Below the pieces are notes generated by a model. That model saw nothing but the letters and a program-made list of their open reading frames with translations. It was not told the DNA's origin and did no database searches. Shown one piece after another: positions 16,717 to 34,983 of a DNA stretch of 64,000 nt. The stretch's first letter is position 1; every line of letters starts with the position of its first letter. The stretch is from an uncultured Caldilineaceae bacterium. Lineage in GTDB: Bacteria; Chloroflexota; Anaerolineae; Caldilineales; Caldilineaceae. Made by a program: the position numbers and the translations under genes. The stretch spans positions 62,001-126,000 of the forward strand of contig CATOTS010000019.1 of assembly GCA_951813625.1 (NCBI GenBank), written 5' to 3'.

Positions 16717-17472
16717 ATGAACATTCTGCCACACGCTGTCAACCGCTTCAACGGCATCGAGATCAACACCGATGAGCTGCCCGACGATGCCGCCGCATTT
16801 GAGCAGGACCTGTCCGCTTCGCTGATCAAATGGGTCCAGGACGCGCGTTTTCTGGTCTGGCTGCATCTGCCCATAGAGCGGGCCGCGCTGGTCCCGATCG
16901 CGACCGCGGCCGGTTTCGTCTTTCACCACACCGAGCCCAACTATGTGCTGCTCATTCGCAAGCTGCAGGAAGACACGCTGGTCCCCGGCTACGCTACCCA
17001 CTACATCGGCGCCGGCGGCGTCGTCATCAACGCCCGGCGCGAGCTGCTCGTCGTCTCCGAGCGGCACCGCGGCTCGGCGCGGCCCTACTACAAGCTGCCC
17101 GGCGGCGCGCTCCATCCCGGCGAACACCTGGCCGCGGCGGTTATCCGCGAAGTCTACGAAGAGACCGGTGTCGAGACCGAATTCGAAGCTGTCGTCTGCT
17201 GGCGCCACTGGCACGGCTACCGCTACGGCAAGTCCGATATCTACTTTATCTGCCGCCTTTCGCCCCTGACCGAGGAGATCGAGCGCGACGACTGGGAGAT
17301 CGACGAGTGCCTGTGGATGCCGGTTGACGAATACTTGCAGCACGAGCTTGTAGGCGAATTCAACCGCGCCATCGTCGAGGCCGCCATCAAGACGCCCGGC
17401 CTAAAAAATCTGTGGATGGACGGCTACGACGACCCAACCAAGCGGGAGTTCTACTGGCCAGATTTTGACTAG
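16717..17472 (+). CDS. Nudix hydrolase with N-terminal pre-Nudix domain
   Basis: A 251-residue pyrophosphohydrolase. The Nudix box lies at about residues 130-152, with Gly130, Glu136 and the REVYEET core (Arg144, Glu145, Glu148, Glu149) that binds metal. The N-terminal 95 residues (FNGIEINTDELPDDAAAFEQ onward) resemble the acetyltransferase-like pre-Nudix domain found with NUDT6 and plant Nudix proteins. It should hydrolyse a nucleoside-diphosphate derivative in the cytoplasm; the exact substrate is unknown. The preceding DNA has a nested inverted repeat that might act in the leader. The LRR cluster starts 27 bp after its stop. Confidence 0.92.
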   Translation: MNILPHAVNRFNGIEINTDELPDDAAAFEQDLSASLIKWVQDARFLVWLHLPIERAALVPIATAAGFVFHHTEPNYVLLIRKLQEDTLVPGYATHYIGAGGVVINARRELLVVSERHRGSARPYYKLPGGALHPGEHLAAAVIREVYEETGVETEFEAVVCWRHWHGYRYGKSDIYFICRLSPLTEEIERDDWEIDECLWMPVDEYLQHELVGEFNRAIVEAAIKTPGLKNLWMDGYDDPTKREFYWPDFD

Positions 17473-17499: not shown

Positions 17500-20400
17500 G
17501 TGAGAACCATGAGCGAGAACTTCCGGCAACTGAAGGGTGTACGCTCGGTGTTGAAACGCGGCCGGCCTATTCCTTACCTGCAACGGCAAGTCCCCCCGCA
17601 GTGGTCATGCCCGCATAGACCGCTGTTTCTCCTTCTTTGCACGGTCCTTTCCCTTCTTCTGGCAGCCGCGTGCTCCGACGCCGACACTGCCCTCTGCCCG
17701 ACCGGACTCGACCACGACGCCGGCGAACAGGCCGGCCCCGGAACAGTCGAAGACTGCGAGATCCTTCTCAGCATCAGGGATACTCTGGCTGGCGATGCCT
17801 CGCTGAACTGGAACGAAGACTTCCCGATCGGCGAGTGGGAGGGTGTCGAGTTCGACGCCTCAACGCTGCCCGCGCGCGTAACGGAGCTTGCTCTCGTCGA
17901 CAAGGGCATGACCGGGACAGTTCCCCCGGCACTGGGCAGCCTCCCCCATCTTGAGCTTCTCGATCTCGCCCACAACGAGTTGACCGGCGAGATCCCGGCC
18001 GAATTGGGCAATCTCTCAAACCTGGGCGAGCTCAATCTGCCTTACAATCGCCTGACCGGCGCGATTCCCCCCGAGTTGGGCAGTCTTGCCGGCCTGAGGC
18101 TGCTGAGCCTCGCCTGGAACGACCTTGCAGGCGAGATTCCGCCCGCGCTGGGCAACCTCGAAGACCTGGAAGGGTTGGACCTGAAGGACAACACCCTGTC
18201 GGGCCTCATCCCCGCCGAAATCGGCCGCCTCTCCAAGCTGAGAGACCTGATCCTGAACGGCAACGAGTTGTCCGGGTCGGTCCCGTCAGAACTAGGCAAC
18301 CTCTTCCAGCTGCGCCATCTTCATCTGTTCAGCAACCAGCTGTCGGGAGAGATCCCGGTCGAACTGGCCCAACTCCCCAACCTGGAGGGCCTCTACCTCG
18401 CCAACAACCAGCTGACCGGGCCGATTCCAGTCGAGTTGGCCCAGATTCCGGTTCTCAAGTGGCTCTACCTGTCAGACAACAAACTGGAGGGCTCGATTCC
18501 GCCCGAACTGGGCAGCATCAGCACCCTGAGAATCCTTGGAATCCAGAACGCCAATATGACCGGCGAAATTCCACCTGAGTTGGGGCGTCTCTCCAATTTG
18601 CAGTCTCTGCGCCTTGAAGGAAACAATCTTTCCGGGCAGATCCCTCCAGAACTGGGCAATCTGAAGAACCTGGGCGACCTGGTCCTGGCCGGCAACAGCC
18701 TGACCGGCCCGATCCCGGTAGAGCTGGGCCGCCTCTCCCAACTCGATCAGCTGTGGCTTGCAGGCAACAAGCTGACCGGGGAAATCCCGACCGAACTGGC
18801 CCGCCTCACTGAGCTACGCTGGCTGGGCCTCAACTTGAACGACCTGTCAGGGCCGGTCCCGGCTGAACTGGGACACCTTTCCAATCTTGAGATTCTGGAC
18901 CTGTCCTACAACTATCTGGTGGGGCCCCTCCCGGCAGAGTTCGGCAATCTCGCACATCTGGAGAGGCTGCTCCTGGCCGGCGCCGGGCTGAATGGCGCCA
19001 TCCCGCCCGAGCTGGGCCGCCTTTCGAGACTCAAGGAGCTGCTACTCAACGGCAACAATCTGACCGGGAGCATCCCCCCCGAGTTGGGCGACCTGGCGAA
19101 CCTGGAAAAGCTGCACCTCTTCAACAACCATCTGCAGGGGGCGATTCCGCACGAGTTGGGCCGACTGGTCAACCTTCAGGAGCTTGCCCTCGACAGCAAC
19201 AGGCTTACCGGGACGGTTCCTGCCGAGCTTACGAACCTGGCAAACTTGCGGGAGTTCAGGGTTGTGTCCAATCCTCTGAGCGGCTGCGTTCCCGAGGCCT
19301 TCCGCGGACGCAGCAGCAATGATACCTTCAGCCTGGGGCTGCCCTACTGCGACGAGGTCACGCACGTTACGCTCTGCTCCAACGGTATCGCGATCGCCAA
19401 TCCCGGCCGCAATCCCGGCCTGGTCGAGGACTGCGCCACATTGCTGGAGATCAGGGACCTCCTGGGTGGGTACTATCCGCTGAACTGGACCGAACAGAGT
19501 TCCATTTACACGTGGCAAGGTGTTGGCCTGGGCGGCGAGGGAGATCTGTTGCGCGTGACCGCGCTTCGGCTTGAAGGCGCGGGTCTATCGGGGGTAGTGC
19601 CGCCCCAGCTGGCGCGGCTTACTCAGCTGGAGGGGCTGTGGCTCCAGGATAACCAACTCACGGGCGAAATTCCCGCCCAGTTGGGCCGGCTCGACAACCT
19701 GGAGTGGCTGTGGCTCCACGGCAACCAGTTGACCGGTCCAGTCCCCCCCGAACTTGGACGCCTGGCAAAACTGAAGGGGCTGAGCCTGCGCGACAACCGG
19801 CTGACCGGTACCATTCCGTCGCAGCTCGGCCTGCTTTCGCAGTTGGAGTGGCTGCGACTCGACGGCAACGGCCTCGAAGGCGAGATTCCCGCCGCGCTTG
19901 CCAACCTGGCGAACCTGCAAGGGCTGGGTTTGCACAGAAACCGGCTGACCGGAACGGTTCCGCCCGAACTGGGGCGTCTCCTCAACCTGGAGTGGCTGCG
20001 CCTCGACGACAACCGCCTTGCCGGTAGCATACCTTCCGAGCTGGGAAATCTGACGAAGCTGACCGGGCTGGGACTGCAGCAAAACCGTCTCTCGGGGCCC
20101 ATCCCCCCAGAACTGGGCAATCTCATCCTCCTGGAATGGCTGCACCTCTATGACAATGAGCTGACCGGACCGGTGCCGCCCGAACTGGGCAATCTCGCCC
20201 GGCTTGAGTGGCTGCGGCTCGACGGCAACCGCCTCACCGGGGAAATACCGTCCCAATGGGGCCAGCTTTCGAAATTGCGCGAGCTGCGCCTCTCGCAAAA
20301 CCAGCTGACGGGCCCCCTGCCGGCCGAGTTGAGCGCACTTCCCATTCTGCGCGAGCAAGATCTCGACGCCGCGCCGTTGAGCGGCTGCGTCCCCGATAGG

Positions 20401-21414
20401 CCGGGCGCTGCGACGAGCGCTGAACAGACCGGAATCGGCCTGCCCATCTGCGGCCTGGTCGAGCAGTGCTCCCTCGGCGTCGCCGTCGCCAATCCGCACG
20501 CGGATGCAGGTCTGGTCGCGGACTGCGCCGCGCTGCTGGAGATCAGGGACGAGTTGACGGGAGATCCCGCCCGCCCGCTCCTGAACTGGAGCGCCCAGCT
20601 CTCGATCCGCGAATGGGACGGCGTAGTTGTCGAGCTGACCGCGGACGGCCCACGCGTGGCCAGGTTGTGGCTGTACGGCAAGGGGCTGTCCGGCGCTGTT
20701 CCGCCCGGCCTGAGCCGGCTCCCCCGCCTGAGAGTGCTGGTCCTGCACGAAAACCTACTGTCGGGCGGCATCCCATCGGAACTGGGCCAGCTCAGCCAAC
20801 TGGAGTGGCTGCGCCTCGACGCCAACACTCTGACCGGCAGAATACCTGCAGAACTGGGCGCCCTCTCCAGCCTGTTGGGACTGGGGCTGCAGGAGAACCG
20901 GCTGACTGGTGGCATACCGGCCGACCTGGCAAATCTCTCGCAGTTGGAATGGTTGCGCCTCGACGGCAACCTGCTCACGGGGACCATTCCGCCCGAGCTA
21001 GGCCGCCTGACCTGGCTCGAGGGGCTGGGGCTGCAACAGAATCTCCTGACCGGCGCGATCCCAGCTTCACTCGGCGCCCTGACACGTCTCGAATGGCTGC
21101 ATCTGTTTGACAACCGTCTGTCCGGTCCGATCCCGCCTGCACTCGGCAATCTCGCCAATCTCCAATGGCTCCGTCTCGACAACAACGCACTGACCGGCGC
21201 GATTCCGCCCGACCTGGGCAACCTCGTCAAGCTGCGCGAGCTGCGCCTGAACGCGAACCAGCTGACCGGCGAAATCCCCGCCGGACTGGAAGGCCTCCCG
21301 TTTCTTGGCGAGCTCCGCTTGGCCGGCAACCGTCTTGGCGGCTGTGCGCCCGCCGGACTGCGCGCCCTGGATGAGAGCGACCTGGCGCAGACCGGTCTGC
21401 CGTTCTGTGAGTGA
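17500..21414 (+). CDS. Exported three-cassette leucine-rich-repeat lipoprotein
   Basis: A 1304-residue exported protein, the largest of six paralogues. GTG at 17500 has AAGGAG (17486-17491) 8 nt upstream. After a basic N-tail comes a hydrophobic segment ending in LLLAAAC, a good lipobox with Cys58. Three cassettes follow. Each starts with a Cys-containing N-cap (pattern LVEDC...LLEIRD...LNW...W-GV) and ends with a C-cap (GC-P...GLP-C). I count 19, 11 and 9 plant-type LRRs of 24 residues (consensus N-LTG-IP-ELG-L). Cassettes 2 and 3 alternate LEWL- and GLGL-type repeats, giving a 48-residue superrepeat. Such LRRs form curved binding surfaces; ligand and role are unknown. Adhesion or recognition outside the cell is plausible. 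Confidence 0.9.
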   Translation: MRTMSENFRQLKGVRSVLKRGRPIPYLQRQVPPQWSCPHRPLFLLLCTVLSLLLAAACSDADTALCPTGLDHDAGEQAGPGTVEDCEILLSIRDTLAGDASLNWNEDFPIGEWEGVEFDASTLPARVTELALVDKGMTGTVPPALGSLPHLELLDLAHNELTGEIPAELGNLSNLGELNLPYNRLTGAIPPELGSLAGLRLLSLAWNDLAGEIPPALGNLEDLEGLDLKDNTLSGLIPAEIGRLSKLRDLILNGNELSGSVPSELGNLFQLRHLHLFSNQLSGEIPVELAQLPNLEGLYLANNQLTGPIPVELAQIPVLKWLYLSDNKLEGSIPPELGSISTLRILGIQNANMTGEIPPELGRLSNLQSLRLEGNNLSGQIPPELGNLKNLGDLVLAGNSLTGPIPVELGRLSQLDQLWLAGNKLTGEIPTELARLTELRWLGLNLNDLSGPVPAELGHLSNLEILDLSYNYLVGPLPAEFGNLAHLERLLLAGAGLNGAIPPELGRLSRLKELLLNGNNLTGSIPPELGDLANLEKLHLFNNHLQGAIPHELGRLVNLQELALDSNRLTGTVPAELTNLANLREFRVVSNPLSGCVPEAFRGRSSNDTFSLGLPYCDEVTHVTLCSNGIAIANPGRNPGLVEDCATLLEIRDLLGGYYPLNWTEQSSIYTWQGVGLGGEGDLLRVTALRLEGAGLSGVVPPQLARLTQLEGLWLQDNQLTGEIPAQLGRLDNLEWLWLHGNQLTGPVPPELGRLAKLKGLSLRDNRLTGTIPSQLGLLSQLEWLRLDGNGLEGEIPAALANLANLQGLGLHRNRLTGTVPPELGRLLNLEWLRLDDNRLAGSIPSELGNLTKLTGLGLQQNRLSGPIPPELGNLILLEWLHLYDNELTGPVPPELGNLARLEWLRLDGNRLTGEIPSQWGQLSKLRELRLSQNQLTGPLPAELSALPILREQDLDAAPLSGCVPDRPGAATSAEQTGIGLPICGLVEQCSLGVAVANPHADAGLVADCAALLEIRDELTGDPARPLLNWSAQLSIREWDGVVVELTADGPRVARLWLYGKGLSGAVPPGLSRLPRLRVLVLHENLLSGGIPSELGQLSQLEWLRLDANTLTGRIPAELGALSSLLGLGLQENRLTGGIPADLANLSQLEWLRLDGNLLTGTIPPELGRLTWLEGLGLQQNLLTGAIPASLGALTRLEWLHLFDNRLSGPIPPALGNLANLQWLRLDNNALTGAIPPDLGNLVKLRELRLNANQLTGEIPAGLEGLPFLGELRLAGNRLGGCAPAGLRALDESDLAQTGLPFCE

Positions 21415-21502
21415 GTAGAAACGGCTCGACTTGACTTCCTAAATGCCCTCTGCGTCCGGCGCCGGCGCAAGATGCTCCGGACACATTCTGGGAGGCGCGA
21501 AG

Positions 21503-23413
21503 ATGAAATGGGGACCTTGTAGCTCTTTGTTGCCCTTGGCGGAGCAATGCCGGCTCGAACCCGCAGGTTCGCTGCCTGCTAGCGTTCCGAAACGGCGTCA
21601 AAGCCGAAGATCTGTTCTTGCCGCCATGGGCGTTCTGGCGGCGTTTCTCTCCGCGTCGACCTGGCTGGGCTGCAACGGATGGTCTCCTTCATCTCCGTAT
21701 ACCCCTCCCCCTACCCCGGTTATCCCGACCCAATGCACAAACGGCATCGCCGTCGAGGACCCGCTGGAGCATCCCGGCCTGGTCGAGGACTGTGAAACGC
21801 TGTTGCGGCTGCAGAAAGCATTGGGTGGAGGCGTGCTGACCTGGAGCGACAATACACCCATTCAGGGTTGGCAGGGCATCACCGTCGATCCAACCGGGCT
21901 GCCACTGCGAGTTTCTGGCATGGATTTCAGTCGGGACCCGGGCTTCCGCCATCTGCGCGGACTTGTTCCGCCCGAATTGAGCAAACTCAAAGGGCTGAGA
22001 GTGCTGGATCTCTCCGGCCACTATCTGAGAGGCAGAATCCCTGCCGAGCTGGGAGACCTTCCCGAACTGGAAGTGCTGACTCTCGGCGACAACCTTATTA
22101 GGGGGGAAGTCCCGCTTTCGCTGGGCCGCCTGTCAAATTTGCGGCATTTGGACCTGGGAAACAATCGGCTGGAGGGGGGCATACCGCCCGAACTCGGCAG
22201 TCTTGCGAATCTCAGATTTCTGGACCTCAGCCAAAACGGCATCACATCGCCGATTCCTGGAATGCTGGGCGGCATCGTCGGGCTGAACACCTTACATCTG
22301 CACGAAAACGAGCTTTCTGGGAGCATTCCTTCAGAGTTGGGCAACCTCGTCGGGCTGGTCAAGCTGACCCTGCACGACAACAATCTGACAGGCGGCGTTC
22401 CTTCAGTATTGGGCAATCTCCCCGGGCTGAGCGAGCTGACCTTGAATGACAATAACCTTTCCGGCGGCGTTCCTCCGGAGTTGGGCCGTCTGTCCGCCCT
22501 GCGCGCGCTGGATCTTTCTCGCAATCAGTTGTCGGGTGAGATCCCGGCAGAGCTGGCCAATCTTTCCAATCTTCGGGAGTTGCACCTCGACAGGAACGGT
22601 CTGACAGGTAACATCCCGGCTGAGCTTGGTAAACTCAGCCAACTTCAGCTGCTGAACATCGCCTCAAACCGGTTGACCGGTGAGATACCAACCGCGTTGG
22701 GAAACCTGAGATTGCTTCAGGAGTTGGGCCTAAACCGGAACCAATTGACGGGAAACATACCGCCACAACTGGGCCGGATTACCCGGTTGAACATAATAGA
22801 CGTCAGCGGAAACCAGTTGACCGGCGACATACCGGACGAGTTCGGCACGCTTTCCCAATTGTGGTGGCTGTTTATGGGGGATAACCAATTGAAGGGCTGT
22901 ATCCCTGCACCGTTGCGTTCTCTCTCGAATAATGTCCTTTCAGAAACCGGGCTACCGTATTGCGACCTGGCCGCCATCTGTTCCAATGGGAAAGCGGTTG
23001 CCGATCCAGAAGGAGACGTAGGGCTTGTCGCAGACTGCGCGCTCCTACTGGAGGCCCGGGACTTGTTGACCGGCAACTCTGTTCTGAACTGGAACGAGCA
23101 GCTTTCCATCCGCAGATGGAGAGGCGTCGGCATTGACGATTCGATGGACAAGCCGCGTGTGACGGCACTGACTCTGGTAGACAGGGGCCTGACGGGAGAG
23201 GTACACCCTGCGCTCGGGGGCCTCCCGTTTCTCCAGACGTTGGACCTTTCCTGGAACTATCTGAGCGGAGAGATCCCGGAGAGCCTGGGCCGCCTGACCG
23301 AACTCAAGGAGCTGCGGTTGGAAGGCAACCGGTTGACAGGGTGCCTTCCCCACATCTGGCGAGATATCGAAGTCAACGACTTGGCCGAAACAGGACTGGA
23401 GTTCTGCAATTGA
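21503..23413 (+). CDS. Exported two-cassette LRR lipoprotein-like protein
   Basis: A 636-residue LRR paralogue. ATG at 21503 is preferred over upstream in-frame starts because GGGAGG (21490-21495) lies 7 nt before it. A basic N-tail (RRQSRR) precedes a hydrophobic stretch ending in ASTWLGC, with Cys57, then a Pro-rich linker (PPPTPVIPT). The first cassette has a Cys N-cap (CTNGIAVEDPLEHPGLVEDC) and about 13 LRRs. The second is a small cassette of 2 LRRs ending in GCLPHIW and LEFCN. WLGC is not a textbook lipobox, but its conservation among four paralogues suggests lipid attachment or another specific signal. Its TGA overlaps the TTG start of the next gene. Confidence 0.9.
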   Translation: MKWGPCSSLLPLAEQCRLEPAGSLPASVPKRRQSRRSVLAAMGVLAAFLSASTWLGCNGWSPSSPYTPPPTPVIPTQCTNGIAVEDPLEHPGLVEDCETLLRLQKALGGGVLTWSDNTPIQGWQGITVDPTGLPLRVSGMDFSRDPGFRHLRGLVPPELSKLKGLRVLDLSGHYLRGRIPAELGDLPELEVLTLGDNLIRGEVPLSLGRLSNLRHLDLGNNRLEGGIPPELGSLANLRFLDLSQNGITSPIPGMLGGIVGLNTLHLHENELSGSIPSELGNLVGLVKLTLHDNNLTGGVPSVLGNLPGLSELTLNDNNLSGGVPPELGRLSALRALDLSRNQLSGEIPAELANLSNLRELHLDRNGLTGNIPAELGKLSQLQLLNIASNRLTGEIPTALGNLRLLQELGLNRNQLTGNIPPQLGRITRLNIIDVSGNQLTGDIPDEFGTLSQLWWLFMGDNQLKGCIPAPLRSLSNNVLSETGLPYCDLAAICSNGKAVADPEGDVGLVADCALLLEARDLLTGNSVLNWNEQLSIRRWRGVGIDDSMDKPRVTALTLVDRGLTGEVHPALGGLPFLQTLDLSWNYLSGEIPESLGRLTELKELRLEGNRLTGCLPHIWRDIEVNDLAETGLEFCN

Positions 23414-25863
23414 AGCCTGACGCTCCCGCCCCCAAGTCGCTGAGACGACGTCAGACCCCCGACAGGCGAAAACAGTTTGTCCGGGCCCCTATTGTCTGGT
23501 TGGCAGCAATTGCGGCTCTGTTCCTGTCAGCGCGGACAGGGCATGCCCTGGCGCAGTCCTCCGCAAATCCCTGTTCCAACGGCACTGTCGTTGCCGAACC
23601 GGAGGTAAACGCCAAACTGGTCGCCGACTGCGTCGTCCTCTGGCAGATAAAGGACGCGCTCGCCGGCGTTGCCGAGCTGAATTGGGGCCCGCTACTGCCC
23701 CTGGATGACTGGCAAGGGATCGGCGCCGGCGGTGAAACCAGCCCCGCGCGCGTTTGGGGGATATCGCTGGTCGGGCACGCCGAAACAAACTTCCTCACCG
23801 GAGAGTTACCGGCCGTACTGGCCGGCCTCACAGGGCTTGTGCACCTGAACCTGTCCGGCAACCGCTTGACTGGCCCCATTCCTCCCGAGTTGGGACACCT
23901 CCTCAACCTCCAGTCCCTTCGGCTGAACCACAACCGCCTGACCGGCCCGATTCCTCAGGAGCTGGGGGCGCTCGCCGGCCTGCGCGCGCTGGCCCTGAAC
24001 GACAACATGCTGACGGGATTGATCCCCGCCAGCCTCGGCCGCCTCACCAATCTGGAGTCGCTTCACCTTGACGACAACCACCTGACGGGAGACATCCCGG
24101 CCGCCCTGAGCAACCTCCGCAATCTTTGGGTGCTATGGCTGGGCGGCAACTGGCTGGCCGGATGTCTTCCCAAGGGCCTGGACAGTCGCGGCGGCAACGA
24201 TCTCGCGCAGCTGGGAATGCCGTCCTGCTCCTATCAGGCCCGGCTGGACGCCTGCCGCGCAAGCCCCGCCTTTGCCGTACACCGGGAGAACGAGGGCCTG
24301 ATCGAAGACTGCGCAACGCTGCTGGAGGTTAGAGATCAGCTGGCAGGGTACGCAACTCTCAATTGGAGCGCCCAGCTCCCTGTCGAAGATTGGGAGGGAA
24401 TCAGGGTCAGCGCGAACAATCTTTCCGGCATGCCCCGGGTTTCCGTACTGGCGCTGGCCAAACGGGGACTGACCGGATTCATCCCGCCCGAAATTGGAAA
24501 GCTTACCCATCTGTATTCACTGTGGCTCGGTGGCAACGAACTATCCGGCGAGCTTCCGGCGGAGCTGGGCAACCTGACCGAAATGGGCCTACTGCAGCTG
24601 CATACCAATGACTTTACAGGCGAGATCCCGCCCGAAATGGGTCAACTCTACAGAATGTTTGGAATGTCCCTGGAACAGAGCGGGTTGACCGGCCAGATTC
24701 CGCCCGAACTGACCGCCATGCAAGGTCTCGAAGGACTGTGGCTCCAAGGAAACAGCTTCGAGGGATGCATTCCGCACTCGCTGCATGGGTCGCTCGACGA
24801 CCTGTACTTGCTGGAACTGCCTTCCTGCCCCGGATGGCAGCATTGGGGCAGCTGCTTCTACAACGGTGCGATTGATGAGCCAATCTACAACCCTGGCCTC
24901 GTTCACGACTGCTCGGTCCTCTTGGAGGTCAAGGAGAACCTTGGCGCCGGAGCCTTGCTGAACTGGAGCGAGGCACTCCCGCTGCGCGAGTGGGACGGCA
25001 TAACCATTGGCCAACGGCGGAGCTGGCTTCGGGTTACCGAGCTAAGGCTTGAAGGCAGGGGACTCTCGGGCCCTGTCCCGCCGGCGTTGAGCGCGCTGAA
25101 CATGCTCGAAGAGCTGTGGCTCAGCGAAAACAGCCTGTCGGGCACAGTCCCGGCTGAGCTCGGCAGGCTCACGAGACTGAAGTGGCTATGGCTGGCCGGT
25201 AACCAGTTGACGGGAGACATACCCCCCGACCTGTCAAGGCTCACCCGCCTGGAGGGCCTGGGCCTCCACCACAACCTGCTGACAGGCCCCATTCCTCCTG
25301 ATTTGACCGACCTCGGCCAATTGCGCTGGCTGCGTCTCGATCACAACGGTCTATCGGGGACCATCCCAGCCGGTCTGGGCAATCTCAACGGCCTGGAGGG
25401 ACTGGGCCTGCACAGAAACCGTCTGACCGGAGAAATTCCCCCCGATCTGGGCAGGCTGAAGAAGCTCAAGTGGCTGCGGCTGGACGGCAACCAACTGACC
25501 GGCCCTATCCCGGCCGCGCTGGGCGGCCTGACCAGCCTGGAAGGCCTGGGCCTGCAGGAAAACAGGCTCAGCGGCCCCATTCCAACTGCCCTGGGCTTCC
25601 TTGCAACCCTGGAATGGCTGCACCTCTTCGACAATGCGTTGACAGGCAAAATCCCGGCTGAACTGGGTGGTTTGTCCAACGTGAAGTGGCTTCAGCTGGA
25701 CGGCAACCAACTGACCGGCGAAATACCCGCCGAATTGGGCCAACTCGCCCATCTCAGGGAACTGAAGCTCACAGGCAACCGCTTGCACGGCTGCATCCCG
25801 CAGTCGCTTCGCTCACTGGAGGACAGCGATTTGGACGAAACCGGGCTGCCTTTCTGTACGTAG
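23410..25863 (+). CDS. Secreted three-cassette LRR protein
   Basis: An 817-residue LRR paralogue that lacks the conserved Cys signal of its neighbours. I chose the TTG at 23410, which overlaps the upstream stop (TTGA); GGAG at 23398-23401 lies 8 nt upstream. The N-terminus has a basic region, a hydrophobic core and GHALAQSS, which looks like a signal peptidase I site, so this member may be released rather than lipid-anchored. Cassettes carry about 5, 4 and 10 LRRs with Cys N- and C-caps. The third cassette shows the same alternating LKWL/GLGL superrepeat as in the 1304-residue paralogue. Translational coupling to the upstream gene is likely. The ligand is unknown. Confidence 0.88.
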   Translation: MKPDAPAPKSLRRRQTPDRRKQFVRAPIVWLAAIAALFLSARTGHALAQSSANPCSNGTVVAEPEVNAKLVADCVVLWQIKDALAGVAELNWGPLLPLDDWQGIGAGGETSPARVWGISLVGHAETNFLTGELPAVLAGLTGLVHLNLSGNRLTGPIPPELGHLLNLQSLRLNHNRLTGPIPQELGALAGLRALALNDNMLTGLIPASLGRLTNLESLHLDDNHLTGDIPAALSNLRNLWVLWLGGNWLAGCLPKGLDSRGGNDLAQLGMPSCSYQARLDACRASPAFAVHRENEGLIEDCATLLEVRDQLAGYATLNWSAQLPVEDWEGIRVSANNLSGMPRVSVLALAKRGLTGFIPPEIGKLTHLYSLWLGGNELSGELPAELGNLTEMGLLQLHTNDFTGEIPPEMGQLYRMFGMSLEQSGLTGQIPPELTAMQGLEGLWLQGNSFEGCIPHSLHGSLDDLYLLELPSCPGWQHWGSCFYNGAIDEPIYNPGLVHDCSVLLEVKENLGAGALLNWSEALPLREWDGITIGQRRSWLRVTELRLEGRGLSGPVPPALSALNMLEELWLSENSLSGTVPAELGRLTRLKWLWLAGNQLTGDIPPDLSRLTRLEGLGLHHNLLTGPIPPDLTDLGQLRWLRLDHNGLSGTIPAGLGNLNGLEGLGLHRNRLTGEIPPDLGRLKKLKWLRLDGNQLTGPIPAALGGLTSLEGLGLQENRLSGPIPTALGFLATLEWLHLFDNALTGKIPAELGGLSNVKWLQLDGNQLTGEIPAELGQLAHLRELKLTGNRLHGCIPQSLRSLEDSDLDETGLPFCT

Positions 25864-25865
25864 TA

Positions 25866-25897
25866 AGAATTGCACATGGTCAGAATTGCACATGGTC
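25866..25897 (+). repeat. Two-copy 16-bp tandem repeat after LRR gene
   Basis: AGAATTGCACATGGTC occurs twice in direct tandem just after the stop codon at 25861-25863. It marks the start of a 1.4 kb gene-poor, repeat-bearing gap. Confidence 0.7.
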
Positions 25898-26470
25898 AGA
25901 CGACGTGAAGTCGACTATCTCCGCGACTGGGAGCCGCGCCGGTTCTTCTGTATGGCACTGCAGGAGCAACGGTACCGTGCGGAGTGAAGCCAAAGGCCGG
26001 CCGTACTGCGAAGAAGAGGGTCCCGCCCCCCATGAACATCACAGAGGCTGAAATAAATGTGCAGCCTGCTCCAAAAGAACCTCATACAGATCGAATCTGA
26101 GCTGCTTCCCCAACGAAACCCGGAGATTCCGCCCAACGGTCGTACCGGCGGATCGCCCAAGAATCCAGCCCGCCCCCTCTTCTGAGAGTCCGCCGTTCCA
26201 AGAAGGACCCCGATGAGAAACCAGGCACGCATAACAAGAATTGACCCAAATACCGGGTTCCCGTGCAAGAGCCAGCCGCGCGCGCTATAGTTGGACCATG
26301 ACCCGCGCGACATACGCCGGCAATGACACAAGAAACAACAGGGCAGGCGCCGCGCAACCCGATTTCACGCAACTCCGGGCAAGAGAATTGAAACCGTACT
26401 ACGCTGTCATCATCATGCCAGTCTAACCGAGGGATTCCAGCCAGGATCGGCCAAAAAAACTGGATCGACC

Positions 26471-26520
26471 CGACCTGACCGGACCTGACCGGACTTAACC
26501 GGACCTGACCGGACTTCGCT
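26471..26520 (+). repeat. 10-bp tandem repeat, five units
   Basis: Five consecutive 10-bp units related to GGACCTGACC (variants CGACCTGACC and GGACTTAACC; the last unit is degenerate). No coding frame uses it convincingly. Confidence 0.7.
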
Positions 26521-26882
26521 CGACTTCGGCCGCACAAGACAATCGCTAGGGATACCATACGACCTTGACTGATCTCACATCACAAAGACACAGCCGCAGC
26601 CAGCCCGGCAGCACACAGGAACAGTCCGCCAAAACGACCCGCTCATGAATTGAAACGGCAAAACAAGGCGAAATCCAGTGCAAGAGCTTTCCGACCATGC
26701 TACTCTGTAAACCATCATGAGAAACTGTCCACCCGCTCCGGCCCTAATCGCACCAATAAACAGTTTTCCAAATTCCTGCTACGCTGCAAACGTCATGCAA
26801 TTCAAGCCGCCAAATTCCGTCCGAAATACGCTCCAAATACCGCCAATCCCGGCGCCCGATACCCCCGCCCAAAAGAAAAAAA

Positions 26883-26925
26883 ATTGGACGACATTGACTG
26901 ACATCGGACGCTATTGGACGACATT
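26883..26925 (+). repeat. Repeated 14-mer ATTGGACGACATTG
   Basis: The same 14 bases occur at 26883-26896 and 26912-26925, separated by a partly similar spacer (GACATCGGACG). Origin and role are unknown. Confidence 0.6.
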
Positions 26926-26966
26926 GGTCGACCTAGAGCGGATGCTTGCCCTACCTTATCCACATA

Positions 26967-27014
26967 AACAATGACGACGACTCGCCCCTGCTGGGAATCC
27001 CCTACTGCGAGTAA
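26967..27014 (+). pseudogene. Remnant of an LRR-protein C-cap
   Basis: One frame reads NNDDDSPLLGIPYCE and then TAA at 27012-27014. This closely matches the end of intact paralogues (pattern NDL--TGLPFC/E-stop). No LRRs or start codon precede it in frame, so it appears to be the last fragment of a deleted gene. Confidence 0.55.
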
Positions 27015-27098
27015 ACCTTTCCCGTCATTGGGCGGGAACGATTCCAGCGCCCTTCTTTGGGCGCGTTAACAATGCTCCCATATTCATTTTGTTTGCTC

Positions 27099-27194
27099 CA
27101 GGGGATCGAGGCGGGGACCATTCCGGTGGAACTTGGCAAGAATGCGCCCATTGAAGTACTGTCTCTACGCGGCAATCAACCGCGAGGAACAGTC
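27099..27194 (+). pseudogene. Remnant LRR unit upstream of the 27.3 kb LRR gene
   Basis: The frame that is continuous with the downstream LRR gene reads AGTIPVELGKNAPIEVLSLR then GNQPRGTV. This aligns with one LRR plus the start of the next (G-IP-ELG-L--LEVLSL-GNQL-G-VP), with decayed consensus positions. It lies before the signal sequence of the next gene and cannot be part of a normal exported protein, so I treat it as a decayed fragment. Confidence 0.55.
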
Positions 27195-27305
27195 GCCTCC
27201 GCCCCGAGACCCATGCATTGCCCGGATTCCAGGCTGCTAAGCAAAGACAGACCGAAAGGAAGCCGTTTCGGACGTAAGAGAAGCAACGCCAGGAGCGTGG
27301 ACACC

Positions 27306-28634
27306 GTGCCAGGCCAGGCCGAAAGTCTGTCGGAATTCGAGAAGCTCACCGACACTCCGCACGCCGCGTCCTGGCTGCAACGTGATGCCGGAGTGCGCCA
27401 AGCAGCCAGAAGGACCATCCTGTCGGCGCTGCTCCTCCTGCTGTTGTTCCTCACCGCGTCCACCTGGCTGGGTTGTTTTCCACTTCCACCTCCACTCCGT
27501 CCTCCGCCGCCTACCCTGCCCCCCGCCGACCCGAACGAGTGCTCCAATGGCATCGCAGTCCCTCACCCGTCCTATCACTTTGAGCTGGTCGACGACTGCG
27601 AAACCCTCCTGCTCGTCCGCGACAGGCTCGCCGGAGACGGTAGGCAGTTGTACTGGAGCGGGCAAAATTCGATCCTGGAATGGAGAGGCGTAGAGGTCGA
27701 CGATTCAGACGATTCAGACGGGTCAGTGAGGGTTGTTTCGCTGCGTCTCTATAGCTCTGGCCTCGAAGGCGATATCCCACCGGACCTGGGCAAGCTCTCC
27801 CATCTGTCCGCGCTTACGCTCTACGAAAACCGGCTGAAAGGAACCATCCCACCAGAATTGGCCAACCTCTCCAAGCTGAAGTGGTTGGATCTCGATCACA
27901 ACCGGTTGACAGGTAGCATACCGGAAGAGCTCGGCACTCTCACCAACTTGAGGACCTTTAGCGCCGGCGCCAATCAACTGACAGGCGCCCTGCCCGCATC
28001 CCTCGGCAACCTCTCCCTGCTTTGGAAGTTGAACCTCGCCGCCAATCAACTATCAGGTCCGATTCCCGCCGAGCTGGGCAATCTCTCCAATCTGGAACAT
28101 ATGGACCTTGCCCACAACCAGTTGACGGGAAGCATTCCGCCAGAGCTGGGTCTTCTCGAGAACCTGCGCTACCTGTACTTGGCCGACAACCAGTTGACCG
28201 GAGAGATTCCGGCAGAACTGGGCAGACTTGCCAACCTCATGTTATTGGAACCGGCGGTGAACCAGTTGACAGGTCCGATTCCGCCTGAGCTGTCCAATCT
28301 CACAAATCTGTACTATCTGCACCTGCATGAGAACGACCTCTCGGGGGAGATACCCCCTCAGCTGGGAAGCCTCGCATCACTAGTCTCGCTGGAACTATCG
28401 CATAACCAGTTGACCGGCGAGATCCCTGGGGAACTGGCCACCCTCAGCAAGCTGAGGCTTCTGAACCTCTCCGACAACCGGTTGGAGGGAGCGATTCCGG
28501 CTGAACTTGGCACACTGGCAGAACTGGCGCAGCTGTTCATCGCCGGAAATTTTCTCGACGGCTGTCTGCCGCCAACCTGGCGAACAATTGACAAAAACGA
28601 CCTGGCCAGGTCCGGGCTGACCTTTTGCGAGTAA
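27306..28634 (+). CDS. Exported single-cassette LRR lipoprotein-like protein
   Basis: A 442-residue LRR paralogue with one cassette of about 11 LRRs. The frame is open from 27057, but the upstream part contains a decayed LRR; GTG at 27306 has AGGAG 10 nt upstream and gives a 57-residue leader to Cys, the same length as in the paralogue at 21503. The leader ends LTASTWLGC and is followed by a Pro-rich linker (PPPLRPPPPTLPP). The N-cap is CSNGIAVPHPSYHFELVDDC, with an Asp/Ser insertion after the W-GV motif (DDSDDSDGS). The C-cap is GCLPPTW...SGLTFCE. The start is the least certain among the six. Confidence 0.85.
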   Translation: MPGQAESLSEFEKLTDTPHAASWLQRDAGVRQAARRTILSALLLLLLFLTASTWLGCFPLPPPLRPPPPTLPPADPNECSNGIAVPHPSYHFELVDDCETLLLVRDRLAGDGRQLYWSGQNSILEWRGVEVDDSDDSDGSVRVVSLRLYSSGLEGDIPPDLGKLSHLSALTLYENRLKGTIPPELANLSKLKWLDLDHNRLTGSIPEELGTLTNLRTFSAGANQLTGALPASLGNLSLLWKLNLAANQLSGPIPAELGNLSNLEHMDLAHNQLTGSIPPELGLLENLRYLYLADNQLTGEIPAELGRLANLMLLEPAVNQLTGPIPPELSNLTNLYYLHLHENDLSGEIPPQLGSLASLVSLELSHNQLTGEIPGELATLSKLRLLNLSDNRLEGAIPAELGTLAELAQLFIAGNFLDGCLPPTWRTIDKNDLARSGLTFCE

Positions 28635-28766
28635 ACAATGAAAGGTGCGCCAAAGGGACATCTTCTCGACCCGTCGCCCTCACTGGAAGGAATTCAGGAT
28701 CCGCTTGCTGAAGGGGGCCTGATAGTTCACACCGGTCTTCGCGCTGCAACAGGGAGGACGGCAAGG

Positions 28767-30404
28767 ATGGCTGACGATGCAATGACTACAATCAATCACA
28801 TCCAACCGCGACGGAAGACCAGAAGAAGGGTTCTGATTCCGCCGCTCGTGCTTCTCCTGTTCCTCAGCATGTCCACCTGGCTTGGGTGCAACATGGGGTA
28901 TGCATCCCTACTGCCGCCTACCACTATCCCAGCCGATCCAAGCGAATGTTCCAATGGGATCGCAGTTCCCGACCCCTTGGAGAATCCCGGCCTGGTGGAG
29001 GATTGCGAGATTCTTCTGGGCATTAGAGATTCCCTCGCCGCCAGAGCTCGGTTGAATTGGAGCCAGAAGCAATCAATCTACCACTGGGAAGGCATAGGCA
29101 TTGACACGGCAACGCTACCCTTGCGAGTAACATGGCTGCGGATCAATCATAAGTTTCTGGCGGGAACCATTCCTCCGGAACTGGGGAGCCTCTCAAGTCT
29201 TGCAGTACTAGATCTCAGCAAGAACGACTTAATCGGAGAGATTCCGGCCGAGTTGGGAGATCTGGCCAACCTGGTTGAGCTCAGACTCGCTTCCAATGAA
29301 CTAACCGGAATTCTGCCGCCCGAACTGGGGAACCTTTCCAATCTGCTGGTTCTGATGGTTTCCTGGAACGATCTGACAGGAGAGATCCCCGCAGAGTTTG
29401 GGAATCTATCCGGGCTGCAATGGCTTAGGCTCGACGACAACAATCTTTCAGGATCCATTCCACCCGAATTGGGGAAACTCTCGAATCTATTGGGTCTCTA
29501 CCTTTCCAGGAACCCCCTTGAAGTAGCCATTCCGTCAGAGCTGGGCAATCTTACAAATTTGAAGGGCCTGTATCTGGAGGAAAACTATCTGACGGGGGAG
29601 ATACCGCCGCAACTTGGCAACCTCTCTAATCTCGAGGGAATGTACCTCACCACGAACCAGCTGACCGGAACTCTTCCGGCTGAACTGGCCCAACTCACAA
29701 AGCTCCGCTGGCTCGACCTCTCCAGGAACGATCTGACCGGCGGGATCCCTCCGGAGTTCGCCGGCCTCTCCAGCCTCAGTTCGCTTGAACTCCCCTGGAA
29801 TCAGTTGTCGGGTGCCATCCCCGGGCAGCTGGGCGACCTACCCTCATTGACCCGGCTGCGACTCTTTCCTGGAAACCGGTTTAGCGGCTGCATTCCTGTG
29901 AAGCTGCGGCAGATATTTGGTGAATATATGGGGCCGCCCGTTCTACCGTTCTGCGACCGTATTCGGACCTGTTCCAATGGCGTAGCCGTCGCCCAACCGC
30001 AGGAAAACGCAGCGTTGGTCGCGGACTGCGCTTTACTCCTCGATGCCCGCGACACGCTGGCCGGCGATGCCTCCCTCAACTGGACTGCAAGCGTACCCAT
30101 CAGCCTCTGGCAGGGCGTAGAGATTGGCGCTTCCCTGGAGCAGCCGCGCGTGACGAAAATTCGGCTCATCGACAGAGGACTGACCGGCCGGATTCCTTCC
30201 ATGTTGGCAGGCCTCGACCGCCTGGATACCCTGGGCCTGGCCTGGAATCACCTGCAAGGGGACGTTCCCGAAGACCTGAAACGATTGGACGGTCTACGGG
30301 AAATCCGTCTTGAAGGCAACGCGTTGAGCGGCTGCCTGCCGCAGAATTGGCAAACAATAGAGGTAAGCGACTTGTCCGAGTCAGGGTTGCGCTTCTGTCA
30401 GTGA
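28767..30404 (+). CDS. Exported two-cassette LRR lipoprotein-like protein
   Basis: A 545-residue LRR paralogue. The frame opens at 28638, directly after the previous stop, but ATG at 28767 has AGGGAGG (28751-28757) 9 nt upstream and gives a compact signal: basic RRKTRRR, a hydrophobic core and MSTWLGC with Cys41. The first cassette has the N-cap CSNGIAVPDPLENPGLVEDC and about 10 LRRs, one of them degenerate (NPLEVAIPSELG). The second is the small two-LRR cassette ending GCLPQNW and LRFCQ. Cap cysteines are retained in both cassettes. The role is presumed extracellular binding. Confidence 0.9.
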   Translation: MADDAMTTINHIQPRRKTRRRVLIPPLVLLLFLSMSTWLGCNMGYASLLPPTTIPADPSECSNGIAVPDPLENPGLVEDCEILLGIRDSLAARARLNWSQKQSIYHWEGIGIDTATLPLRVTWLRINHKFLAGTIPPELGSLSSLAVLDLSKNDLIGEIPAELGDLANLVELRLASNELTGILPPELGNLSNLLVLMVSWNDLTGEIPAEFGNLSGLQWLRLDDNNLSGSIPPELGKLSNLLGLYLSRNPLEVAIPSELGNLTNLKGLYLEENYLTGEIPPQLGNLSNLEGMYLTTNQLTGTLPAELAQLTKLRWLDLSRNDLTGGIPPEFAGLSSLSSLELPWNQLSGAIPGQLGDLPSLTRLRLFPGNRFSGCIPVKLRQIFGEYMGPPVLPFCDRIRTCSNGVAVAQPQENAALVADCALLLDARDTLAGDASLNWTASVPISLWQGVEIGASLEQPRVTKIRLIDRGLTGRIPSMLAGLDRLDTLGLAWNHLQGDVPEDLKRLDGLREIRLEGNALSGCLPQNWQTIEVSDLSESGLRFCQ

Positions 30405-30525
30405 AAAGTGGAGATCGCGGTTCCGTCAGTGCCAGATAAAACGACGAACTGGTTCATCACGCCCTGCACCCGCCGACAATGCTGACGTTCGAATCGACAT
30501 CAAATAGAAACAAGGAGTTGCCAAG

Positions 30526-32673
30526 ATGGAACTACCCAACGGGAGAGTAATGCAAGTGTCAGTAGCGGAGCGCCAGTCCCCGAGCCAGGCCTCCATCTTT
30601 GCCGACCAGCGCAGGGAAACGCGTGAACGCAGTCGCAAAAGGGTTGCCGCTGCACTGCTTGTGCTGGTGACATTCCTCACTGCCTCGATCTGGCTAGGCT
30701 GTGTGCAACCGCCGCCACCGCCGTCACCGCGGCCACCGCCGCCGACTCCGATCCCAACACCTTTCCCAGCTGACCCGGCCGCGTGTTCCGCCGGCGTCGC
30801 GGTCGAGACGCCGCTGGAGAATCCCGGACTGGTCGAAGACTGCGTAACACTCTTGAAGATAAGAGACAACCTGGTGGGCGAGGGAAGGTACTTGTACTGG
30901 AGCGGCGAGACTTCCATTCTGACTTGGGAAGGGGTTGTTGTCGACACCGAAGCAGAGCAGCCCAGAGTCGTAGGCCTCAACCTTTATGCGTACGGGCTGG
31001 GGGGAGAAATCCCTCTGCAACTTGGCTCTCTTGCCGCATTGCAGGAACTGGTCCTGGGCAGAAACAGTCTGACCGGGGCCATCCCGACACAGCTGGGCGA
31101 TCTGTCCAATCTGGAGGTCCTTGCCCTCTTCTCCAACGACCTGACCGGAAGCCTGCCCGCTGAACTGGGCCAGCTCTCCAATCTTTCGTCACTGCTTGTC
31201 GAGGAGAATGAGCTAACCGGCGGAATTCCGCAGGAGTTGGGCAATCTCTCTGATCTGATCTGGCTGAATCTGGGACACAACCAGTTATCTGGTGAAATCC
31301 CCGCCGGGCTAGGCAGGCTTTCCAGTCTCCAGGGTTTTGACGTCGGCGGCAACCGGCTGACTGGACCAATCCCACCCGAGTTGGGCAGGCTTTCTGAGCT
31401 GACCGGACTCATACTCGAAGACAACAGATTGACGGGAAGCGTTCCAACAGAGTTAGGCAATCTCTCGAGCTTGGAGCGGCTTGACCTCTCCCGCAATCAG
31501 CTTACAGGTGGCATTCCATCAGAATTGGCCCGTCTTTCAGTCCTGCGCCATCTTCGCCTTTCCTCCAACCAGTTAACGGGCGGCATATCTGCCGGGCTGG
31601 GCAGTTTAACTAATCTGGAGTCCCTGCACCTGGAGGCCAACCAGCTGTCGGGAGGCATTCCTGAAGAACTGGGCAATCTCAATGGTCTGTACGGGCTATA
31701 CCTGCACGAGAACGAACTCTCAGGAAGCATACCCGGCGAGCTGGGCAGTCTTGCAGAGTTGCGACGGCTCTCAGTCTACTCCAACCGCCTGACGGGCGAG
31801 ATTCCGGCAGAGTTGGGCAGTCTCAACCGTCTGTGGGAGTTGAAGCTCGCCGGGAACGAACTTACAGGAGTCATTCCTCCAGAGTTGGCCCGCCTTTCCA
31901 GCGCAGAGCTGATAGATCTCTCAGGCAATGACTTTTCTGGGCCCATTCCTCCTGAAATGGGTGGACTCTCGCGACTGGGCCAGCTGAAGCTCTCGGGCAA
32001 CCAACTCACGGGAGAGATTCCTGTAGAACTGGGTGGTCTCCGCTGGCTCTACGAATTGGATCTTTCCGACAACAAGCTGGATGGAGAGATTCGAGCGGAC
32101 CTGAGCCCCCTGTCGGATCTGGGCGCGTTGTTCGTTTCCGGCAATCAATTGGGCGGGTGCTTCCCCGAAACCTGGCGTAGCATCAATGAGAATGACCTTT
32201 TGGACGCAGCAGTTCCCTTCTGCAGCCGCCAGGCCCTTTGCTCCAACGGCGTTGCCGTTGAAAATCCAAACGAGAATGGCGGGCTGGTATCGGACTGCGC
32301 CCTGCTTCTGGATCTCCGCGACACACTGGCCGGCGCGGGCTCGCTGGACTGGAGCGAAGATGTCTCCATCGACACCTGGAAAGGGGTAGAGATTGGCGCC
32401 TACGATGAGGAGCAGCGGGTAACCGCGCTCCAGCTTGTCGACAACGGGCTGACAGGCCAGGTTCCCGCACAGCTGGCAGGCCTGGACGGCTTGCAGACCC
32501 TGGATCTCTCCTGGAATCTGCTAGGGGGAGAGATTCCGGACAGCTTGGGCCGGCTGGACAGTCTACGGGAACTCCGTCTCGAAGGGAACCAGCTGTGGGG
32601 ATGTTTGCCGTCGAAGTGGCGCACACTCCACGACAGCGACCTGGCCGAGACAGGGCTGCCCTTCTGCCGATAG
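30526..32673 (+). CDS. Exported two-cassette LRR lipoprotein-like protein
   Basis: A 715-residue LRR paralogue. ATG at 30526 has AAGGAG (30512-30517) 8 nt upstream. A basic N-tail is followed by a hydrophobic stretch ending LTASIWLGC (Cys59) and a marked Pro-rich linker of PPPPPSPRPPPPTPIPTP type. Cassette 1 has about 16 LRRs, cassette 2 has 2 LRRs and ends GCLPSKW...GLPFCR. One repeat is altered at the conserved IP positions (GGISAGLG), another at GEIRADL. This is the last gene of the LRR cluster; the next gene is unrelated. Confidence 0.91.
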   Translation: MELPNGRVMQVSVAERQSPSQASIFADQRRETRERSRKRVAAALLVLVTFLTASIWLGCVQPPPPPSPRPPPPTPIPTPFPADPAACSAGVAVETPLENPGLVEDCVTLLKIRDNLVGEGRYLYWSGETSILTWEGVVVDTEAEQPRVVGLNLYAYGLGGEIPLQLGSLAALQELVLGRNSLTGAIPTQLGDLSNLEVLALFSNDLTGSLPAELGQLSNLSSLLVEENELTGGIPQELGNLSDLIWLNLGHNQLSGEIPAGLGRLSSLQGFDVGGNRLTGPIPPELGRLSELTGLILEDNRLTGSVPTELGNLSSLERLDLSRNQLTGGIPSELARLSVLRHLRLSSNQLTGGISAGLGSLTNLESLHLEANQLSGGIPEELGNLNGLYGLYLHENELSGSIPGELGSLAELRRLSVYSNRLTGEIPAELGSLNRLWELKLAGNELTGVIPPELARLSSAELIDLSGNDFSGPIPPEMGGLSRLGQLKLSGNQLTGEIPVELGGLRWLYELDLSDNKLDGEIRADLSPLSDLGALFVSGNQLGGCFPETWRSINENDLLDAAVPFCSRQALCSNGVAVENPNENGGLVSDCALLLDLRDTLAGAGSLDWSEDVSIDTWKGVEIGAYDEEQRVTALQLVDNGLTGQVPAQLAGLDGLQTLDLSWNLLGGEIPDSLGRLDSLRELRLEGNQLWGCLPSKWRTLHDSDLAETGLPFCR

Positions 32674-32766
32674 GGTATCGCTGCCTCTTGTCGTTTACTT
32701 CAAGAGCGTTCCAAAACAGTGCTATCCTTTTCCGGGAAGGCCCCGCCATCTACCAGGCAGGAGCAA

Positions 32767-34983
32767 ATGACAATCCCATCCGACTACACCGAGCGCGTCT
32801 ACGCCGGCGTCCTTGGCAAACTCATCGGCGTCTACCTCGGCCGCCCCTTCGAGGGCTGGACCTACGAGATGCTCAGCGACAAATTCGGCGAAATCAACTA
32901 CTACGTCCATGAGGCGCTGGACGTGCCCCTAATCGTCACCGACGACGATCTCTCGGGCACCTTCACCTTCCTGCGCGCCCTGCCCGACTACGGCAACCGC
33001 CGCGACATAACGCCCGCGCAGATCGGCCAGAGCTGGCTCAACTACATCATCGAGGAACGCACCATCCTCTGGTGGGGCGGCATGGGCAACTCGACCGAAC
33101 ACACCGCGTTTCTGCGCCTCAAGGAGGGCGTCCCCGCCCCCCGCAGCGGCTCGATCGCCCTCAACGGCCAGGTCGTCGCCGAGCAGATCGGCGCCCAGAT
33201 CTTCATCGACGGTTGGGCTATGGTTGCCCCGGGAGACCCGGAGCTCGCCGCCGAGCTCGCGCGCAATGCCGGCAGCGTCTCCCACGACGGCGTCGCCATA
33301 CACGGCGCGCAGGTGCTGGCCGCCATGGAGGCGCAGGCATTCGTCGAGAGCGACATCAACCGCCTGATCGACACCGGACTCGCAGTCATCCCCGCCGACT
33401 CTCTTATCCGCACAATGATCGACCAAATCCGCGAATGGCACGCAGCCAACGGCGACAACTGGCGCGCGACCCGCCAGAATATCGCCGCCAACTTCGGCTA
33501 CGACAAGTACGGCGGCAACTGCCACATGCTGCCCAATCACGCCCTGATAATCCACGCGCTCCTCCACGGCGACGATGACTTCCAAAAGTCTCTCATGATC
33601 GTCAACACCAGCGGCTGGGACACCGACTGCAACTCCGGCAACGTCGGCTGCCTCCTCGGCATCAAGAACGGCCTGGCCGGCATCGAGAGCGGGCCCGACT
33701 TCCGTGGCCCCGTCGCCGACCGCCTCTACCTGCCAACGGCTGACGGCGGCCGCGCCGTCACCGACGCCGTGACCGAGAGCATCCGCGTCGCCAACGTGGG
33801 CCGCGCCCTGGCGCAGGAGCCCGCCCTCGCGCCGAAGAACGGGGCCCGCTATCACTTCGAGCTGCCCGGATCGGTCCAGGGCTTCATGCCCGACGAAAGC
33901 CCGGCCAGCCGCGGAACGCTCACGCTCGCAAACACCGCCGGCCACAGCCTGAACGGCAACCGTAGCTTAGCGCTCCACTTCAACGGCGTCGCCGCCGGTC
34001 GCGAAGCGCGCGCCGCTACGCATACCTTCATCCCTTCCAGCGAGATCGCCAACTACTTCGAGCAACGCGGCTACGCTCTGCTCGCCTCGCCTTCCCTCCA
34101 CCCCGGTCAGACCGTCTCAGCCGCGCTGCAGGCAGGCGCCGGCAACGCGCACACCGTCAACGCCGCCCTCTTCCTGCGCCGCTACGCCGCACAGGACGAC
34201 CGCCTGATCCTGGTCCACGGGCCCTCGCAAATGCTCAAACCGGGCGCACGCCATACCTTCACCTGGCAGTTGGACGGTGCCGGCAACGAGCCAATCGCGG
34301 AAGTCGGCGTGGCGATCAGCAGCCCCGTCCGCACACAGGGGAGCATATATCTCGACTACCTCACCTGGTCGGGAGAGCCAAACGTCTCCTTCAGCCGCCC
34401 TGACGCCGCACCCGACCGCAGCCGCCCGTCGTCAGCGCCCCGGATGTGGCGCCGCGCCTGGGTAGACGCTGTCGACAGTTTCGATCCCCGCTGGCCGGAA
34501 GCCTTCCGCATCGTCCAGAACCGCGGCCGCGGCCTCCTGATGACCGGTACACGCGAATGGCGTAACTACACCGTCCAGTCCGCGCTGACCCTGCACTTGT
34601 GCACAGCCGCAGGCATCGCCGCGCGCGTGCAGGGCATGAGACGCTACTATGCCCTGCTCCTCTGCCGCGACGCCGGCGGAAACGGAGTCGCCAGGCTCGT
34701 GCGCGCCCTCGACGGCGATACGGTCCTCGCCGAGGCCCCCTTCGCCTGGGAGTACGGCGAGACCCGCAAGTTTCAGCTGCGCGTCACCGGCAACCGCATC
34801 CGCGCCGCTATCGACAGCCTCGAAGAATCGCTTTTCGATGTCACCGACGACGCGCTCGACGGCGGCGGCGTCGCGCTCGTTGTCGAGGAGGGCCGCGTCA
34901 TGAGCGACGCTGTGATCGTTCAGCCCTGGCCGGCAAGCACGGGAGCAGTCCACAATCGGTATTCAGATTCCTGTACCTCATGA
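32767..34983 (+). CDS. ADP-ribosylglycohydrolase-family protein with large C-terminal extension
   Basis: A 738-residue protein. The N-terminal about 340 residues match the ADP-ribosylglycohydrolase family (PF03747): LGKLIGVYLGRPFEGW, an acidic metal site VTDDDLSGT (Asp59-Asp61), and GWDTDCNSGNVGCLLG (Asp285, Asp287). These are the Mg-binding motifs of enzymes that remove ADP-ribose. The remaining 400 residues look all-beta and contain two possible carbohydrate-binding or concanavalin-like sections; no domain name is certain. ATG at 32767 has AGGAG only 3 nt upstream. The last 12 or so codons and the TGA are supplied by the interspersed repeat (starts at 34946), so the native C-terminus may have been replaced. 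Confidence 0.85.
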   Translation: MTIPSDYTERVYAGVLGKLIGVYLGRPFEGWTYEMLSDKFGEINYYVHEALDVPLIVTDDDLSGTFTFLRALPDYGNRRDITPAQIGQSWLNYIIEERTILWWGGMGNSTEHTAFLRLKEGVPAPRSGSIALNGQVVAEQIGAQIFIDGWAMVAPGDPELAAELARNAGSVSHDGVAIHGAQVLAAMEAQAFVESDINRLIDTGLAVIPADSLIRTMIDQIREWHAANGDNWRATRQNIAANFGYDKYGGNCHMLPNHALIIHALLHGDDDFQKSLMIVNTSGWDTDCNSGNVGCLLGIKNGLAGIESGPDFRGPVADRLYLPTADGGRAVTDAVTESIRVANVGRALAQEPALAPKNGARYHFELPGSVQGFMPDESPASRGTLTLANTAGHSLNGNRSLALHFNGVAAGREARAATHTFIPSSEIANYFEQRGYALLASPSLHPGQTVSAALQAGAGNAHTVNAALFLRRYAAQDDRLILVHGPSQMLKPGARHTFTWQLDGAGNEPIAEVGVAISSPVRTQGSIYLDYLTWSGEPNVSFSRPDAAPDRSRPSSAPRMWRRAWVDAVDSFDPRWPEAFRIVQNRGRGLLMTGTREWRNYTVQSALTLHLCTAAGIAARVQGMRRYYALLLCRDAGGNGVARLVRALDGDTVLAEAPFAWEYGETRKFQLRVTGNRIRAAIDSLEESLFDVTDDALDGGGVALVVEEGRVMSDAVIVQPWPASTGAVHNRYSDSCTS

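Follow-up and report, generated by a model that had tools for sequence, protein, structure and literature searches.

The single large gap in a cluster of six leucine-rich repeat (LRR) genes is very probably where a non-coding mobile repeat has landed, beside two small LRR scraps. The find is of an ordinary kind, a transposable-element landing site, and it corrects a supposed case of gene decay, as the DNA in question is mostly transposable-element DNA. Our window, the whole stretch of 64,000 nucleotides that was analysed, is G000:C19:62001-126000, from a 5.4 Mb genome in 59 contigs (G000), and represents one assembly of one strain. The main points of interest are the turnover of the LRR locus among relatives and the existence of repeat copies that lack terminal inverted repeats (TIRs). 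A core with paired decamer arrays, found both with and without ISAs1-type ends, lends itself to testing as a case of nested non-autonomous mobility.

Composition of the gap

The six LRR genes occupy positions 17500-32673 of the window, between two flanking genes:

16717-17472, + strand: left flanking gene, conserved, synteny anchor
17500-21414, + strand: LRR gene A, 1304 aa, three cap-LRR-cap modules (ORF, Pfam LRR)
21443-23413, + strand: LRR gene B, 656 aa (ORF, Pfam LRR)
23341-25863, + strand: LRR gene C, 840 aa, borders the gap on its left (ORF, Pfam LRR)
27393-28634, + strand: LRR lipoprotein-like gene D (ORF, Pfam)
28638-30404, + strand: LRR gene E, 588 aa (ORF, Pfam)
30526-32673, + strand: LRR gene F, 715 aa (ORF, Pfam)
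32719-34983, + strand: right flanking gene, conserved, synteny anchor, with close orthologues in 15 of the 16 other same-genus genomes (none in G016)

The right flanking gene, which we take to be an ADP-ribosylglycohydrolase from its appearance, had no match in NCBIfam. The ORF list and Pfam matches of the cluster confirm a point of the preliminary description, namely that its only large gap lies between gene C, with its stop at 25863, and gene D. A DNA search of the genome showed that 834 of the 1442 bp of this gap (25864-27305), at about 26102-26935, are a copy of a dispersed repeat. The features of the gap are as follows:

25866-25900, + strand: 16-mer in 2.2 tandem copies, directly after the stop of gene C and outside the element
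26102-26935, + strand: copy of the dispersed non-coding repeat core, its last ~283 bp absent, with no ISAs1-type inverted repeats around it
26263-26291, + strand: putative promoter-like block GTGCAA-17-TATAGT, read from the sequence and from invariant alignment columns
26467-26514, + strand: decamer array 1, unit GACCGGACCT, within the element and aligned in family copies
26678-26706, + strand: putative promoter-like block GTGCAA-17-TACTCT, read from the sequence and the alignment
26883-26932, + strand: decamer array 2, unit ATTGGACGAC, within the element and aligned in family copies
26937-27014, + strand: probable LRR C-cap remnant with stop, SGCLPYLIHINNDDDSPLLGIPYCE-stop, adjoining the truncated element edge (last matching base about 26935)
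27114-27194, + strand: probable remnant of a single LRR, GTIPVELGKNAPIEVLSLRGNQPRGTV, from frame reading and profile score

The gap had been described as a graveyard of LRR genes. Of its 1.44 kb, only some 160 bp deserve that label; the transposable-element copy accounts for most of the gap, both tandem-repeat patches included. Those patches and the duplicated 16-mer are present as described; the attribution of the patches to LRR decay was mistaken, as both belong to the dispersed repeat. When the origin of the 5' piece of the gap (25864-26101) was sought by DNA search, the genome showed no significant second copy of 25862-26104. The interval 26001-27000 has a GC skew of -0.204 and an AT skew of +0.302, and the element is A/C-rich on the + strand.

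A dispersed non-coding repeat

Used as a DNA query against the genome, the gap gave 62 matches including itself. The best non-self matches covered query positions 222-1072 at 79-83% identity, and 25 non-self matches were longer than 280 bp (76-87% identity). Alignment of 20 copies indicated a complete core of ~1.13 kb with sharp family edges, and the window copy, which is 13% off the family consensus, ends ~283 bp before the 3' edge. The full core as query yielded 28 matches in G000, which were joined into 25 loci. Divergent pieces of the core were found in G012 (21 matches) and G013 (1 match), with none at E 1e-10 in the other 14 of the 17 genus genomes and none at E 1e-6 in 29 family genomes outside the genus.

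The two decamer arrays stand at an identical place in all 14 near-full-length copies aligned, an alignment that took in 14 of the 25 loci. A related array unit occurs in G003, G005, G006 and G013, and the two-array layout was present in the three relative copies that were read (L221, L223 and L228, from G003 and G013). The exact array pattern had no match in a wider genome-contig collection, from which records of G000 itself may be left out. Elsewhere in G000, contig C8 carries about seven tandem units of ~79 bp (L057:580-1100), each with a promoter-like block of the element, and further on a decamer array followed by an ORF without assigned function. On contig C9, a core copy (L187) is split by an insert of ~2.6 kb, with consensus positions 963-969 on both sides of the insert, as a 7-bp target duplication would give.

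A coding element was rejected, as variability in the core was nearly equal across the three codon positions (0.168, 0.148 and 0.160) and none of the 52 indels in the alignment was a multiple of three; long open frames are to be expected on its A+C-rich strand, where stops are few. An RNA gene was likewise rejected. Searches up to E 10 returned no Rfam match worth the name, with one chance miRNA match under the gathering score, and the covariation term of RNAalifold (+2.6) gave no support to a conserved fold of the core, so neither of these two marks of a structured non-coding RNA was found.

ISAs1-type ends and mobility

In 12 of the 25 loci, one or both sides of the core carry a 15-bp TIR, CAGGGCAATYGCAYC, at the expected distance. 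About half of the loci hold the core inside a non-autonomous ISAs1-type transposon. With up to one mismatch allowed, the TIR pattern is present in 16 of the 17 genus genomes. With 394 matches, G011 stands many times above the others, which probably reflects a burst of small ISAs1-type elements in that genome. Elements of the ISAs1 group end in CAGGG and generate target duplications of 8-10 bp. Among 16 TIR pairs, a 10-bp target duplication was exact in one, carried one or two mismatches in four and was absent from 11.

A profile search with PF13808, presumably a domain that accompanies ISAs1 transposases, gave three matches in G000 and matches in 9 of the 17 genomes. An intact ISAs1 copy was found in G003 (L235; 1253 bp). 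It has identical TIRs and a 10-bp duplication without mismatches, and its 397-aa frame scored 443 bits with NCBIfam transpos_ISAs1 against a cut-off of 70; in G000, two loci (L239 and L245) retain the TIR span with broken frames. The repeat family shows three traits of a non-autonomous ISAs1-type transposon: TIRs shared with the ISAs1 element, target duplications, and no encoded transposase or coding signal in the core. The TIRs, the target duplications and one empty site described below show that the family is mobile, and an ISAs1 transposase would move the TIR-bearing copies in trans.

Core copies without inverted repeats

At least six loci (L184, L185, L192, L195, L197 and L200) have both core edges with no TIR at the expected distance, and within 250 bp they share no flank with other copies. 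The window copy, which has no TIR nearby and no visible target duplication, is filed in the same TIR-less class as a copy of the core only, because TIRs at both ends are absent. At L185, the flanking matches lie 55 bp apart in the sister genome G012 and 1191 bp apart in G000, which identifies an empty site; no target duplication was visible at this locus when the two were aligned. At L192, the corresponding place in G012 is occupied by a diverged copy; part of the family is therefore old, and where a copy is absent elsewhere, it may have been lost rather than never gained. Another TIR-less core copy (L194, contig C21) adjoins a coreless fragment of the outer transposon, and this fragment gives the joined sequence of that site without the insert. 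Elements of the IS200/IS605 type carry subterminal hairpins at both ends, and this type was rejected for the TIR-less core: five end segments from three copies folded no better than shuffles (z -0.62 to 1.60).

It is conceivable, although we would not presume it, that the core is an independent non-coding mobile DNA without TIRs or target duplication, which inserts alone and also rides inside the ISAs1-type transposon, with arrays that co-evolve with a DNA-binding partner. Insertion alone is considered because one copy has an empty orthologous site, and the partner because the paired arrays keep their layout while the unit sequence changes across the genus.

The repeat might also be a cis-regulatory or RNA-coding module kept for its function at each locus rather than parasitic DNA. 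Such a role would be consistent with the clustering of invariant columns in the promoter-like blocks and arrays, with the recurrence of the paired-array layout in relatives that have a different unit sequence, and with the array that precedes an ORF on C8. However, a consensus scan of the gap found one sigma-70-like promoter against 0.8 expected, no excess, and supported neither promoter-like block; the Rfam and covariation results do not point to an RNA, the core is missing at E 1e-10 from most of the genus, and the TIRs, target duplications and empty site speak for mobility. We therefore consider a retained functional module unlikely, and mobile DNA remains our preferred interpretation of the repeat.

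Probable LRR scraps beside the truncated end

Profiles were built from the 13 C-caps (one false regex match removed) and 77 repeats of the cluster itself, and best-domain scores were compared with those of 3000 dinucleotide shuffles of the whole gap and of the flank (26936-27305). The score of the C-cap scrap was reached by 16 of 3000 flank shuffles and 69 of 3000 whole-gap shuffles, and that of the LRR scrap, for similarity to the 24-residue repeat, by 4 and 11 of 3000, respectively. With the uncleaned C-cap set and full-sequence scores, 7 of 1000 (C-cap) and 0 of 1000 (LRR) shuffles of the whole gap scored as high. The C-cap scrap is only moderately significant. The flank counts place the similarity of both scraps above chance, in keeping with the earlier proposal, and both are probably LRR remnants.

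Several details of that proposal need adjustment. The C-cap frame ending in a stop exists, with its start at 26937 instead of 26967, and the LRR-like frame placed at 27099-27194 extends over about 27114-27194. The latter had been described as fused in frame to the next gene, and an open frame (27057-28634) does run through; from a comparison of STWLGC lipobox-like leaders, gene D likely starts at GTG 27393 or 27306, and the LRR remnant therefore need not be translated with it. As the C-cap precedes the LRR, the two scraps do not form one gene read in order. The loss of a paralogue had also been called recent, which is unsupported: the gap gave no significant blastn match to any paralogue (best E 0.07 in the window and 0.24 in the cluster), and the element copy is itself well diverged from its consensus.

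The two frames could be products of chance in a gap made of the element and unrelated intergenic DNA; the matches are short and lack DNA similarity, and the whole-gap shuffles equal the C-cap score 69 times. Against this, both frames lie on the same strand within the 370-bp flank adjoining an LRR gene, the C-cap begins at the element edge and keeps its spacing to the stop, and flank shuffles rarely reach either score, which together make a chance origin rather improbable. Less probable still is a gap composed mainly of decayed LRR paralogues with the repeat patches as part of the decay: although two LRR-like frames beat most shuffles and decayed LRR genes occur at this locus in relatives such as G012 and G006, the interval 26102-26935 matches the repeat at 24 other loci, which refutes decay there, that repeat includes both patches as conserved elements and no further convincing LRR similarity was found in the gap, so this explanation stands for the ~160 bp of scraps alone.

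Under the landing-site interpretation, the simplest history would begin with insertion of the element next to a former LRR paralogue or inside it. A later deletion may have taken the last ~283 bp of the element and, with them, the greater part of the LRR gene, which would leave the broken element end abutting the LRR C-cap, as it does now. Within the genus, the number of genes at the locus has changed repeatedly, and recombination among the repeats would be the probable cause.

Turnover of the LRR locus in relatives

The stretch between the two flanking genes was surveyed in 15 relatives, with G016 excluded as it has no close right-flank orthologue. A search with the right flanking gene gave Caldilineaceae MAGs (Chloroflexota) as the nearest named relatives. 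There was no LRR match in five of the 15 (G005, G007, G009, G010 and G011), where the anchors lie 77-590 bp apart; three have a remnant or decayed LRR gene (G003, G006 and G012), a single LRR gene, its open frame 642-690 codons long, is present in six others (G001, G002, G004, G008, G014 and G015), and the stretch from G013, which is cut, contains at least one LRR gene. This range, set against six genes in the window, supports the fast turnover of the locus put forward in the preliminary description. The sister strains, where an intact gene had been expected to be informative, hold no callable intact counterpart of the scraps. The repeat was found at this locus in none of the 15 relatives, and, as conservation does not extend to the LRR cluster, no sister shows the pre-insertion site of the window copy.

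The closest sister, G012, carries one decayed gene at the syntenic locus (L096:6547-7995). In its 5' part, which contains a stop, it resembles gene A (51% over 141 aa), and in its 3' part gene F (54% over 270 aa). This hybrid would most simply be read as an A-F fusion that arose by deletion and later decayed, which makes a collapse of the cluster by deletion probable; at least A and F would therefore predate the split of the two lineages. A single LRR locus thus ranges within one genus from no gene through a decayed hybrid and one gene to six, a variation that bears on how symbionts renew their surface proteins. The clade appears to be sponge-associated, judging from the bin names of relatives and from the literature.

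Comparison with known systems

Among the open-licence literature searched, including that on miniature inverted-repeat elements (MITEs) of Chloroflexi and on ISAs1, we found no publication on this repeat, and none that joined sponge, Caldilineaceae and leucine-rich repeat. The likeness to ISAs1 insertion sequences and their MITE-like derivatives lies in the 15-bp TIRs and the 10-bp duplication of the intact ISAs1 copy of the genus. Unlike ISAs1 elements, the repeat has an internal core of ~1.13 kb with two decamer arrays in place of a transposase gene, and this core is also found without TIRs, as in the window. To our knowledge, movement of a core apart from its TIRs is not typical of MITEs.

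Bacterial MITEs are described, in passages of PMC3281130, as non-autonomous elements moved by insertion sequences, and the present repeat is similarly non-autonomous, non-coding, dispersed and presumably moved in trans. In contrast to MITEs, the present elements measure 0.9-1.4 kb, far above the TIR pairs of 174 and 235 bp that also occur in the genus. For the LRR genes, the nearest comparison is with the eukaryote-like proteins of sponge-symbiont Chloroflexi: in passages of PMC6306507, sponge-derived genomes of Caldilineae and SAR202 are described as containing LRR genes, whereas our analysis concerns the turnover of one such locus and the insertion of an element into it.
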